This document shows, piece after piece, positions 42,211 to 59,492 of a stretch of 64,000 nt of DNA. Under the pieces are notes generated by a model. That model ran no database searches. It saw only the letters and a list, made by a program, of their open reading frames with translations, and had not been told where the DNA came from. The DNA comes from Bradyrhizobium roseum (GTDB lineage: Bacteria; Pseudomonadota; Alphaproteobacteria; Rhizobiales; Xanthobacteraceae): NCBI RefSeq assembly GCF_030413175.1, contig NZ_CP129212.1, positions 868,001 through 932,000 on the forward strand, in the 5' to 3' direction. Both the position numbers and the translations under genes were made by a program. Each line of letters opens with the position of its first letter. Positions within the stretch are counted from its first letter, which is position 1.

Positions 42211-43380
42211 CTAAAACGGCAGCCCCACGTAATTCTCCGACAGCGACGCCGAGGCTGCCTTCGAGTTGACCACGTAGTCCAGTTCGGCGAGCTGGATGCG
42301 CGCGCCGAATTCGCCCTCGTCGGGGAATTTGTGCAGCATCGAGGTCATCCACCAGGAAAAACGCACCGCCTTCCAGACCCGCGCCAGCGCCTTGGCCGAA
42401 TAGGCGTCGATGCCCGCCGACGACTTTTCGTCGTAATATTCGCGGAACGCGTGCGAGAGATAATGCACGTCGCTGGCGGCTAGGTTCAGCCCCTTGGCGC
42501 CGGTCGGTGGCACGATGTGCGAGGCGTCGCCGGCCAGAAACATCCGGCCGAACCGCATCGGCTCGGCAACGAAGCTGCGCAGTGGCGCAATGCTCTTTTC
42601 GATCGAGGGCCCGGTGACGAGTTCGTCCGCTGCCTGCTGGTCGATCCGGCGCTTCAACTCGTCCCAGAAGCGCTCGTCCGGCCATTGCGCGATATCGTCG
42701 TCTAGCGCGCACTGTACGTAGTAGCGGCTGCGGCGGGTCGAGCGCATCGTGCACAGTGCAAATCCGCGCGCGTGGTTGGAATAGATCAGTTCGGGACTGA
42801 CCGGGGGGGTATCCGACAGGATGCCAAGCCAGCCGAACGGATAGATCCGCTCATAGGTCTGGATCGCCGACGGCTTTACGCTGGCGCGGCTGACGCCATG
42901 GAATCCGTCGCAGCCGACGATGAAGTCGCATTCGATCTCGTGGCTGACGCCATCCTTGACGTAGGTGACGCGCGGGTGGTCGGTATCGAAATCATGCGGC
43001 GTCACGTCCACGGCCTGGTAGACGGTGGTGAGACCCGCGGCCTTGCGTGCATTCATCAGGTCGAGTGTCACCTCGGTCTGGCCGTAGATCATCACGGTCT
43101 TGCCGGTGGAAGCGTGCATGTCGATGCGATGCCGCGCGCCGCCGAACGCGAGTTCGATCCCATGGTGCACGAGTCCCTCATCATGGGCGCGCGCGCCGGC
43201 GCCGGCTTCGTCAAGCAACGCCACCGTGCCTTCCTCGAGCAGGCCGGCGCGGATGCGGCTCAGCACATATTCCCCCGTCTGGCGCTCGAGGATGACGTTG
43301 TCGATGCCGTAAAGGCGTAATAGTTGCCCAAGCAACAATCCCGCCGGACCTGCGCCTATGATCGCTACTTTTGTCCTCAA
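42211..43380 (-). CDS. pobA: 4-hydroxybenzoate 3-monooxygenase
   Basis: A 389-residue FAD-dependent aromatic hydroxylase that converts 4-hydroxybenzoate to protocatechuate with NADPH and O2. It has the dinucleotide fold [17 protein letters not shown] at the N-terminus, the internal DG motif ([13 protein letters not shown]), the FAD/ribityl motif [20 protein letters not shown], and the C-terminal ENYVGLP with the conserved active-site Tyr. The length equals that of Pseudomonas PobA. It is divergent from the DctPQM operon, with several AT-rich palindromes between the two. Confidence 0.96.
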
Positions 43381-43440
43381 TCCCGCCTCCCCTGAGGGCT
43401 GTCGTCGGCAGGCCGGTTGCCTGCGAGCTTGCGCCGATAA

Positions 43441-43453
43441 TTATATGATATAA
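43441..43453. promoter_or_regulatory. palindrome TTATAT-G-ATATAA upstream of pobA
   Basis: A perfect 13-base palindrome 61 bases upstream of the pobA start. On the minus strand TATAAT (43445-43440) overlaps it and could be the pobA -10 box, so a protein bound here would block pobA transcription. Confidence 0.55.
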
Positions 43454-43532
43454 CAGTCTTGGCAAAGCATGCCGGCACAAAAACCGCGAAGCGCCTACGC
43501 TGCACTGCAAAAGGTGCGGCCGGATGTCCGCC

Positions 43533-43564
43533 TTGAAAAAGCGGACAAGCTAGATAACATGTTA
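43533..43564 (+). promoter_or_regulatory. candidate promoter and palindrome upstream of the TRAP operon
   Basis: TTGAAA at 43533-43538 and TAACAT at 43555-43560 are 16 bases apart and would serve as -35/-10. The perfect palindrome TAACATGTTA (43555-43564) overlaps the -10 box and is a possible operator. GGGGAGAG follows as ribosome site for dctP. Confidence 0.5.
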
Positions 43565-43615
43565 AATAACGGGGCCGCGCAACAATGGCCTGTCATTCGA
43601 GGGGAGAGAAAGTCC

Positions 43616-57755: not shown

Positions 57756-57760
57756 CGCCG

Positions 57761-58801
57761 TCAGTCCTTTTCTTCCTCGACCGCGGGCGCTGCGAGCGAG
57801 CGCAGCACCAGCACGGGGAGGATCAGCGTGAAGACGATGACCTCCTTGAAATTACTGGCGTAGAACGAGGAGAAGGCCTCGACGCTGCCGACGATCAGGG
57901 CCGCGACCGCGGTCAGCGGATAGCTCACGAGACCGCCGATGATCGCGGCGATAAAGCCTTTCAGACCGATCAGGAAGCCGGTGTCGTAGTAGAGCGTCGT
58001 GATCGGCACGATCAGGATGCCGGAAATGGCGCCGATCAAGGACGCCAGCAGGAACGCAATCTGCCCCGACAGCGTGGTGCGGATGCCGACGAGGCGGGCG
58101 CCGAGCCGGTTGACGGCGGTGGCGCGCAGCGCCTTGCCCATCACGGTGAAGCCGAAGAACAGCCACAGCGCGATGATGAAGGCGATCGTCAGCCCGTACA
58201 CCGCAAGGCTCTGGCCGGTAAAGCGCAACGGACCGACCGTGAGCGCCGCATTCGACAGCGCCGGGCCGCGCAGGCCCTCGGCGCCGAAGAAAACGAGCCC
58301 AAGACCCTGCAAGGCCAGGTGCGAACCGACGGAAGCGATCAGCAGCACCAGTACCGAGGTGTGCGCGAGCGGCTGGAAGGCGATGCGATAGAGAAACAGG
58401 CCGATCGCCGCCACGATCAACAGCGACAGCGCGATGTTGACCGCGATCGGCGTTTTCGGACCGGCCAGACCGAAGGTCAGGGCCAGGATGGCGGCGGGCA
58501 GCACGATGTTGATGGCGAGGGAACGCAATATGCGCCCGAGCCGAAGCGATCGCCGCGCGTCGAAGAGGTCGAGGGCAAAGGCGACCAGACCCATTGCCAA
58601 CGCGAGCCACGCTGTGCCCGGCACCTTGCCGGTCGCCAGCACCGCATAGCTCAGCGCGCCGTAGGTGACGAATTCGCCCTGCGGAATCAAAATGACGCGC
58701 GTGACGGCAAATACCAGCACCAGCGCCAGCCCGAGCAGCGCGTAGATCGCGCCGTTGGTAATGCCGTCCTGCAACAGGAACAGCATGATCGTGGTATTCA
58801 A
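57761..58801 (-). CDS. ABC transporter permease, LivH type
   Basis: A 346-residue inner-membrane protein with eight to nine helices; LQDGITNGAIYALLGLALVL and ILIPQGEFVTYGALSYAVL at the N-terminus and RLGARLVGIRTTLSGQIAFL in the middle are LivH marks. It is the first gene of the livH-(MG)-F operon and is divergent from the MarR gene, with the ATTTGATA inverted repeat between them. Confidence 0.93.
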   Translation of the reverse strand: MNTTIMLFLLQDGITNGAIYALLGLALVLVFAVTRVILIPQGEFVTYGALSYAVLATGKVPGTAWLALAMGLVAFALDLFDARRSLRLGRILRSLAINIVLPAAILALTFGLAGPKTPIAVNIALSLLIVAAIGLFLYRIAFQPLAHTSVLVLLIASVGSHLALQGLGLVFFGAEGLRGPALSNAALTVGPLRFTGQSLAVYGLTIAFIIALWLFFGFTVMGKALRATAVNRLGARLVGIRTTLSGQIAFLLASLIGAISGILIVPITTLYYDTGFLIGLKGFIAAIIGGLVSYPLTAVAALIVGSVEAFSSFYASNFKEVIVFTLILPVLVLRSLAAPAVEEEKD

Positions 58802-58887
58802 GACTGGCGCTCCCCCTCAAGCGTCGCCGGCCCGGCGTCGCGCGGACCCCGGACATGCCGTGTCTCGGCAGTTGAAAGCCGCCGATA

Positions 58888-58917
58888 ATTTGATATGTTC
58901 AATAACAATTATCAAAT
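58888..58917. promoter_or_regulatory. operator candidate between marR and the liv operon
   Basis: ATTTGATA (58888-58895) and TATCAAAT (58910-58917) are exact inverted arms with a 14-base gap; GATAATT/AATTATC (58884-58890 and 58907-58913) form a second overlapping pair. The AT-rich cluster sits in the 172-base divergent gap and is a probable MarR site. Confidence 0.6.
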
Positions 58918-58973
58918 ATAACATCAAGGCCGGCCATCGGCTGGGCCTCCGTTTCGGGTGCGAGCCTCACGCG

Positions 58974-59492
58974 ATGACAGTTTCCAAGGCAGCGACCGAT
59001 CCCGTCAAGCCGTCGCGCAGCACCGGCCGGGAGATCGCCGACGGCGCCGCCGACCATGCCGGTTTGCACCTCGGCGAACTGGCTGAGCTGCTCGGTTATT
59101 CGCTCAAGCGCGCGCAGCTCAAGGTGTTCGAGGATTTTTTGCGCTGCGTCGCGCCGTTGCAGCTGACGCCGGCGCAATTCTCGGTGCTGTTGCTGCTCGA
59201 CCGGAATCCCGGCCGCAACCAGACCGAAATTGCCAACACGTTGGGCATTCTCAGGCCGAATTTCGTATCGATGCTGGATGCGCTGGAAAGCCGCGGCCTG
59301 TGCGCCCGGATGCGCTCGACCAACGACCGCCGCTCGCACATCCTGGCCCTGACCGACAAGGGCAGGGCGGTGCTGGCGCGCGCCAAGAAGCTGGTCGCCA
59401 CCAAGCACGAGGCGCGGCTCAACGAACTGCTGGGCCCGGCCAATCGCGTCGCGTTGCTGGAAATGCTGACCAAGATCGCGGCTGAGTTCTAG
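58974..59492 (+). CDS. MarR family transcriptional regulator (CouR-like position)
   Basis: A 172-residue MarR protein. The DNA-binding core is LTPAQFSVLLLLDRNPGRNQ, TEIANTLGILRPNFVSMLDA and the wing STNDRRSHILALTDKGRAVL. The first 40 residues are an extra N-terminal arm. By position next to aromatic transport genes and the CoA pathway it parallels CouR of Rhodopseudomonas palustris, a MarR repressor released by p-coumaroyl-CoA; identity of the ligand here is inferred. The frame is open upstream, but ATG at 58974 fits. It overlaps the convergent kinase gene by four bases. Confidence 0.88.
   Translation: MTVSKAATDPVKPSRSTGREIADGAADHAGLHLGELAELLGYSLKRAQLKVFEDFLRCVAPLQLTPAQFSVLLLLDRNPGRNQTEIANTLGILRPNFVSMLDALESRGLCARMRSTNDRRSHILALTDKGRAVLARAKKLVATKHEARLNELLGPANRVALLEMLTKIAAEF

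Follow-up and report, generated by a model that had tools for sequence, protein, structure and literature searches.

A 64,000-nucleotide stretch of Bradyrhizobium roseum DNA (the window; C1:868001-932000 of a 7.32-Mb one-contig genome) carries, at positions 42211-59492, a gene cluster that is the Bradyrhizobium counterpart of a locus already published for Rhodopseudomonas palustris, cou/tar. The initial annotation described it as a hydroxycinnamate-to-protocatechuate region, and its match to the cou/tar type bears this out. The annotation also pointed to a missing cleavage enzyme. Correspondingly, tblastn with two thiolases as queries found no thiolase at 42-60 kb of the window, and no aldehyde dehydrogenase is among the recognised genes of the interval 42211-59492, all of which are assigned otherwise. 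The cleavage enzyme is probably encoded off-site, as had been supposed, but the best candidate is an unlinked amidohydrolase, designated P0004, and not a thiolase. A β-oxidation-like route with hydrolytic cleavage by P0004 is probably the main route in this organism.

It is proposed that p-coumarate, ferulate and caffeate enter through the transporters TarPQM and CouPSTU, that CouB forms the coenzyme A (CoA) ester, and that CouA hydrates it. A short-chain dehydrogenase/reductase (SDR) would then oxidise the β-hydroxyacyl-CoA to the β-ketoacyl-CoA, and P0004, as an enzyme of the CouO/HpeF kind, would cut the C-C bond by hydrolysis (retro-Claisen) to give 4-hydroxybenzoate or vanillate and acetyl-CoA. 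PobA, and then PcaHG, would act after this cleavage, and CouR would control all pathway genes through TTATN5ATAA boxes. The thioesterase of the cluster probably survives as a relic, or as a salvage enzyme, of an ancestral version that contained a thiolase. Gene identities, synteny, the boxes with their conservation, and the distribution of thiolase and amidohydrolase can be read from sequence; the binding of CouR to the boxes, the amidohydrolase reaction and the direction of flux are inferred.

The inverted repeat TTATN5ATAA is common to three promoter regions of the locus, at 43441, 47246 and 58909: the divergent pobA/tarP promoter (TTATATGATATAA, 43441-43453), the couA promoter (TTATAAATCATAA, 47246-47258) and the divergent couS/couR promoter (TTATCAAATATAA, 58909-58921). 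The window holds these 3 matches, versus a mean of 0.07 after shuffling. Counts for related loci (n=80) refer to the best 80 of 212 encoding a relative, several of which stop at a contig edge. The box lies upstream of couA in all 78 usable relatives, between couS and couR in all 41 usable relatives, and 5′ of tarP in 42 of 56; it was found upstream of neither couP (0/73), sdr (0/77), couU (0/53) nor the DUF3237 gene (0/61). When these loci were divided into tiles of 280 bases, 163 of 5022 tiles had the repeat, promoter sites included.

R. palustris CouR is a repressor released by p-coumaroyl-CoA, and in work by Hirakawa from 2012 it reportedly covers an inverted repeat at the start of couAB. 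The MarR-family repressor encoded at 58974-59492 (+) matches PDB entry 6C28 ('CouR') at E 1.7e-70, with the next chain at 1.7e-10, and on this similarity is the presumed orthologue of R. palustris CouR. TTATN5ATAA is accordingly named here as the putative CouR box, to which CouR would bind. The couR start is more likely the ATG at 58974 than the TTG at 58755, which opens the overlong ORF (open reading frame) first listed.

Elsewhere in the genome, the boxes lead to two further pathway genes. TTATN5ATAA occurs at 15 places, five of which are pathway promoters, and most of the others are expected by chance because the reversed-pattern control gave 13. ORFs of at least 100 amino acids near a box were taken for a Pfam scan. 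Around the ten remaining places (L172-L181), none of 14 such ORFs was a thiolase, an aldehyde dehydrogenase or anything else evidently of the pathway; the families present were AAA, LysR, TIR, TctC, penicillin-amidase and others. The boxes at pcaHG and at the amidohydrolase gene, by contrast, are not chance-like. The first, C1:7174242, lies upstream of pcaHG (TIGR02422, TIGR02423), and the motif is found in 21 of the 26 loci that could be located among 30 pcaH loci. A box before protocatechuate 3,4-dioxygenase suggests that ring cleavage may be under the same control. This copy is identical to the tarP variant of one relative. As the same-strand gene pcaF is located 5′ of the box, the box is assigned to pcaHG, and pcaF, being on the wrong side, was rejected as a co-regulated thiolase. 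The genome-wide search for such a thiolase, to which the initial annotation had looked, ended there: the genome has 14 Thiolase_N matches, and of the scanned ORFs by the boxes only pcaF encodes a thiolase.

The second box, C1:6414084, lies in a divergent promoter, with two MaoC-type genes on one side and the PF04909 amidohydrolase P0004 on the other. A box is present at the amidohydrolase gene in 37 of 37 Bradyrhizobium loci examined. Among 20 loci from other genera, 8 have it, including all three of the Rhodopseudomonas loci examined, from eight genomes. R. palustris PS3 has six box places in 5.3 Mb (control, 3), namely tarP, couA, couR/couS, the amidohydrolase gene and two others (L357, L361), near which lie a FabI-type reductase, a DUF3060 and a trypsin-type ORF.

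P0004 (C1:6414138-6415019; PF04909, E 2.9e-60) is encoded 5.5 Mb from the cou/tar locus in contig coordinates, outside the cluster, to which the predicted box alone connects it. Its sequence contains IDIHTH, FHTG, LAHPS and GSDW, in agreement with the pattern HxH...H...H...D, which we take to be the amidohydrolase-superfamily motif. The protein is found in 58 of 60 genomes of the genus, its own included, at 91-100% identity, and has no name in NCBIfam.

Homologues of P0004 were found by tblastn in 110 plasmid records, of which eight were opened, picked by identity, name and organism. Five of these eight (Rhizobium Q54, Rhizobium TH2, Phaeobacter G2, Terrarubrum and Peteryoungia) are clustered with genes for a feruloyl-CoA synthase, a crotonase and a MarR regulator, and four of the five also with an SDR gene; in the five plasmid stretches a thiolase is neither annotated nor matched by tblastn. 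Such cluster-borne homologues of other Alphaproteobacteria are 69-75% identical to P0004, and that of Rhizobium Q54 was deposited as a 4-hydroxyphenyl-beta-ketoacyl-CoA hydrolase. Two of the eight have genes for an acetoacetate-CoA ligase, a biotin-dependent carboxylase and a HAD protein next to them, a setting like that of the acetovanillone Hpe cluster, and the remaining one has ligase, SDR and MaoC genes as its neighbours. A couA-like gene and an amidohydrolase gene (65%) are adjacent on one strand of genome G177.

These settings resemble described deacetylation pathways. In Rhodococcus jostii RHA1, the last step is catalysed by CouO, a member of the amidohydrolase superfamily, and the acetovanillone pathway likewise ends with such an enzyme, HpeF, each yielding an aromatic acid (PMC4737184, PMC9618137). 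The gene hpeF is the last of the acetovanillone cluster, and its closest verified homologue is couO, at 95% identity (PMC9618137). Furthermore, in pathways of this type an aromatic acid is formed at the stage where thiolysis would stand (PMC12753220). The RHA1 regulator differs, its CouR being only about 25% identical to that of R. palustris (PMC4737184). A closer parallel in gene content, likened by description, is the SpG8-1b cluster of Agrobacterium fabrum (Atu1415-Atu1422, HcaR), which has a feruloyl-CoA synthase, an enoyl-CoA hydratase, a dehydrogenase, a cleavage enzyme and a MarR repressor; there the cleavage gene is inside the cluster, whereas here it is unlinked (PMC7797058). Because of the clusters of its homologues, the deposited name and the descriptions of CouO and HpeF, P0004 is most likely a hydroxyphenyl-β-ketopropionyl-CoA hydrolase, as far as gene context and annotation indicate. 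The amidohydrolase named in PMC13289028 is another one, not P0004.

The MaoC/FAS1-dehydratase-type gene pair (L011:501-1456, -, near C1:6413600) that shares the boxed divergent promoter with P0004 is possibly an alternative cinnamoyl-CoA hydratase. It was rejected as a necessary partner of P0004, since MAO1 is divergent from the amidohydrolase gene in only 28 of 57 loci.

The distribution of P0004 among relatives was compared with that of the cluster thiolase in a sample of 198 genomes of the family; a CouA-type crotonase is encoded in 99 of them (E up to 1e-90) and P0004 in 61 (E up to 1e-60). The 99 couA loci comprise 98 fetched loci and the window. In 28 of the 99, a thiolase gene separates couB from sdr, and for one of these 28 P0004 is also in the genome. 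Another 51 have P0004 without a cluster thiolase, one of them also with pcaF near couA; 18 have neither enzyme, with pcaF 0.1-2.7 kb from couA; and two have none at all. Cluster thiolase and P0004 are almost mutually exclusive in this sample. G131 (L328, L247) is the only sample genome with both a cluster thiolase and an amidohydrolase (65%), the latter encoded near a couB-like gene.

The two states also follow kinship. In the nine genera grouped around Bradyrhizobium and Rhodopseudomonas, P0004 is present for 46 of 47 loci and the thiolase in 0 of 47, while in the neighbouring genera of the CouA tree (g43 and g46) all six loci have the thiolase and all six also have the box at couA. Thiolase and amidohydrolase labels are strongly clustered on this tree, the root of which was set for drawing only. 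The pattern is consistent with loss of the thiolase from an ancestral couA-couB-thiolase-SDR-thioesterase cluster; on that view the thioesterase makes sense as the former partner of that enzyme. A gene hidden between couB and sdr was considered and rejected: among 14 thiolase-free loci viewed, there was none wherever both genes were found, and among those where couB was not found, G082 has an ORF of no recognised family and G095 a thiolase-like fragment.

The remaining cluster genes are unevenly kept in the 47 loci of the nine genera: SDR directly follows couB in 28 and thioesterase directly follows couB/SDR in 26, with two loci ending at couB. In Rhodopseudomonas (L211-L213, L251-L255) the thioesterase occurs without the SDR in 8 of 8 loci, and in some related genera the SDR occurs without the thioesterase. 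Among the Bradyrhizobium-type loci the SDR is kept in 77 of 80 and the thioesterase in 76 of 80.

The strongest alternative, a serious though much less likely one, is that CouA acts as a hydratase/lyase, so that a retro-aldol step would release 4-hydroxybenzaldehyde or vanillin and acetyl-CoA, unlinked aldehyde dehydrogenases would complete the conversion, and the SDR, thioesterase and amidohydrolase would have side or salvage roles. The evidence for it comes from R. palustris, the route of which is labelled 'non beta-oxidation' (PMC3610893). An R. palustris strain overexpressing CouB and CouA together with the yeast alcohol dehydrogenase ADH2, in which the aldehyde dehydrogenase/reductase genes RPA1206, RPA1687 and RPA1725 were deleted, converted about 100% of 5 mM ferulate to vanillyl alcohol and 5 mM p-coumarate completely to 4-hydroxybenzyl alcohol, and CouA is called a hydratase/aldolase in that work (PMC10612212). 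CouA was likewise modelled as aldehyde-forming in a study in which rpa1786 knockdown hardly affected growth on p-coumarate (PMC12366328). If CouA yields an aldehyde, the SDR and the thioesterase would be dispensable.

The CouA protein itself (47278-48087, +) is a crotonase-fold hydratase or hydratase/lyase. Its best solved relative is 3HIN (E 8e-135), which we take to be R. palustris CouA and which is 98% identical to the crotonase of the R. palustris PS3 genome. The closest solved relative after 3HIN is 4IZB; 4IZB-4IZD are presumably structures of DmdD, methylthioacryloyl-CoA hydratase, the substrate and pathway of which differ from those of CouA. In the alignment, Glu123 and Glu143 of CouA fall on glutamates of 4IZB, and the first of these positions is Ala in 4IZC. 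CouA has both glutamates of plain hydratases, whereas the lyase HCHL lacks one of the two. No HCHL-named entry is among the best 60 of 209 solved CouA relatives, yet the protein called a hydratase/aldolase in R. palustris is 78% identical to this one. Release of an aldehyde is further disfavoured by retention of the SDR in the Bradyrhizobium-type loci and by the boxes: no aldehyde dehydrogenase was seen beside the 15 boxes here (ORFs of at least 100 amino acids, Pfam; no genome-wide search was made), nor at the two R. palustris PS3 boxes outside the pathway, while one box precedes the amidohydrolase gene.

The hydrolytic route as the main one nevertheless faces several opposing observations. 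CouA here is 78% identical to R. palustris CouA, the protein of the aldehyde-forming experiments and model described above, and by analogy may release aldehyde too, despite both hydratase glutamates; the aldehyde and hydrolytic exits may both run. The R. palustris cluster has no SDR (0/8), although homologues of 63% and, in six of eight genomes, about 57% identity are encoded elsewhere. P0004 was likened to CouO by context and annotation, not by the sequence of CouO itself, and the amidohydrolase gene lacks the box in genus groups g8 (0/2) and g28 (0/4), as does tarP in 14 of 56 relatives. In the 18 loci with only pcaF near couA, it is possible that the thiolase is borrowed from the pca pathway. 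Finally, a kinship-aware test of the thiolase-amidohydrolase pair found four supported pairs, which places significance out of reach. The preference for β-oxidation-like degradation in the initial annotation is thus retained in part: the SDR and the thioesterase are of β-oxidation type and relatives have the couA-couB-thiolase-SDR-thioesterase cluster, but the R. palustris enzyme is reported to form aldehyde.

Thiolytic β-oxidation, in which a thiolase of the genome such as PcaF would cut the β-ketoacyl-CoA and the cluster thioesterase would free 4-hydroxybenzoate from 4-hydroxybenzoyl-CoA, is very improbable: the 14 Thiolase_N matches, the relatives with a thiolase in the cluster, the 18 loci with pcaF and no other candidate, and the wide retention of the thioesterase speak for it, but the cluster has no thiolase, the one box-side thiolase, pcaF, is 5′ of a box that serves pcaHG, and the thioesterase directly follows couB/SDR in little more than half of the amidohydrolase-genera loci.

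The likeness of the locus to R. palustris cou/tar (RPA1782-1794) extends to gene content, order and orientation, the CouP ligand contacts, a fused CouT and conserved boxes, and for the DUF3237 protein, CouP, CouR and CouA R. palustris-type solved structures are the best or near-best match. As in R. palustris, TarPQM, couAB, couP, couSTU and couR are all at one locus; the order in R. palustris PS3 is pobA, tarPQM, DUF3237, couA, couB, thioesterase, couP, couUTS, couR. Two differences are the SDR gene between couB and the thioesterase gene, which is missing from the eight Rhodopseudomonas loci, and a GGDEF/EAL gene between couP and couU, which has no match there in Rhodopseudomonas loci. In every one of the 80 related loci couA occurs with couB or with the TRAP/DUF3237 genes, at minimum, and the arrangement is therefore not a product of chance.

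At the left end, pobA (42211-43380, -; TTG start) encodes 4-hydroxybenzoate 3-monooxygenase (TIGR02360 equivalog, 685.5 bits, cut-off 538.7). The tripartite ATP-independent periplasmic (TRAP) transporter comprises the solute-binding protein TarP (DctP; 43616-44632, +; PF03480), which is 60% identical to TarP of R. palustris PS3 at the equivalent position, TarQ (DctQ; 44711-45220, +; PF04290) and TarM (DctM; 45226-46542, +; PF06808, TIGR00786). Downstream of couA follow couB (48089-49969, +), a p-coumaroyl/feruloyl-CoA ligase gene (PF00501; NF009232 at 732.5 bits, below the cut-off of 777), and the gene for the type II 3-hydroxyacyl-CoA dehydrogenase-like SDR (50008-50769, +). The best solved relatives of the SDR (4XGN at E 2e-86, 1UAY and HSD10-type chains) are titled 3-hydroxyacyl-CoA dehydrogenase, several of them type II. 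The 4HBT-fold thioesterase (50780-51199, +) has the 4-hydroxybenzoyl-CoA thioesterase 1BVQ as best solved relative (E 6e-15), and the Asp of its GDCDP stretch aligns with a position that is Asn in chain 1LO9.

The hydroxycinnamate-binding protein CouP (51285-52436, +) of the ATP-binding cassette (ABC) transporter matches 3TX6 (E 1e-200) and 4JB0 (E 5e-200), the latter being ferulate-bound CouP (PMC3610893). All seven ligand contacts that were compared (H309, Q305, R197, S222, T102, E50 and F306) are conserved at a constant offset of 2. The other transporter genes were present as initially annotated, but their left-to-right order is livF, livMG, livH on the minus strand, with transcription the opposite way: couU, the livF-type ATPase gene (55258-55989, -; PF00005), couT, the fused livM-livG (55986-57755, -; 589 aa; PF02653 (BPD_transp_2), PF00005 (ABC_tran) and PF12399; 82% to R. 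palustris PS3), and couS, the livH-type permease gene (57761-58801, -; PF02653). The presence of two unrelated uptake systems had drawn attention, and both are indeed there. However, the pairing is not new, since in R. palustris CouPSTU and TarPQM are at one locus and bind coumarate, ferulate, caffeate and cinnamate with nanomolar affinity (PMC3610893); they are a known transporter pair with overlapping ligands.

All genes named in the initial annotation are in place, but it overlooked the 858-aa PAS/GAF/GGDEF/EAL gene between couP and couU (52504-55080, -) and gave the marR ORF too long. The 858-aa gene is matched in 6 of 80 relatives, several of the loci ending before that place, and because of this rarity it looks like a later insertion. 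Beyond pobA, a second 4HBT-fold thioesterase gene (41548-42012, -) adjoins a LysR gene (40658-41551). On the other side of the locus, a LivK-type binding protein gene (60905-62131) and a similar-reading stretch from about 62290 (-) are probably a tandem duplication.

The DUF3237 protein (46551-47012, +; PF11578, E 9.9e-45) is the RPA1785 orthologue, matching PDB 3C5O, 'UPF0311 protein RPA1785', at E 2e-86. Its gene is the closest recognised upstream neighbour of couA in 72 of the 99 loci (42/47, 30/46 and 0/6 in three subsets), with a gap of <1 kb in 58 of 71. Most clusters have it ahead of couA whichever their type, including clusters in which no TRAP genes intervene. Because it stands next to couA in loci of either type, DUF3237 does not track the cleavage step, and as it is present in thiolase and amidohydrolase types alike it was rejected as the cleavage enzyme. 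The protein had been left unassigned, which no longer holds entirely. The sole functional lead found is that PinX, a protein with a DUF3237 domain, shares 42% identity with the decarboxylase PhcG and 38% with the decarboxylase PhcF (PMC12607616); by analogy, a decarboxylase-like role is only a lead.

Each element of the locus and of the pathway is already known. A link between the R. palustris-type cou regulon and an unlinked amidohydrolase, or an exchange of the latter with a thiolase, was not found in the literature searched, which is no proof of absence. With P0004, a single candidate gene can be named for the gap left by 'no thiolase', and an amidohydrolase that is highly conserved in Bradyrhizobium is tied to plant phenolics. 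More tentatively, and with rather less confidence than the route proposed for B. roseum, it may be that in the whole Bradyrhizobium-Rhodopseudomonas branch the cluster thiolase was displaced by the unlinked, CouR-controlled amidohydrolase, the accepted aldehyde route of R. palustris being only one of two exits from a common CouA product and the hydrolytic exit the regulated one. This offers a sequence-based reason to re-examine the side-chain exit in R. palustris, a model for lignin-monomer conversion, under induction of the CouR regulon, and it suggests an exchange of places between a thiolase and a hydrolase unrelated to it in one pathway.

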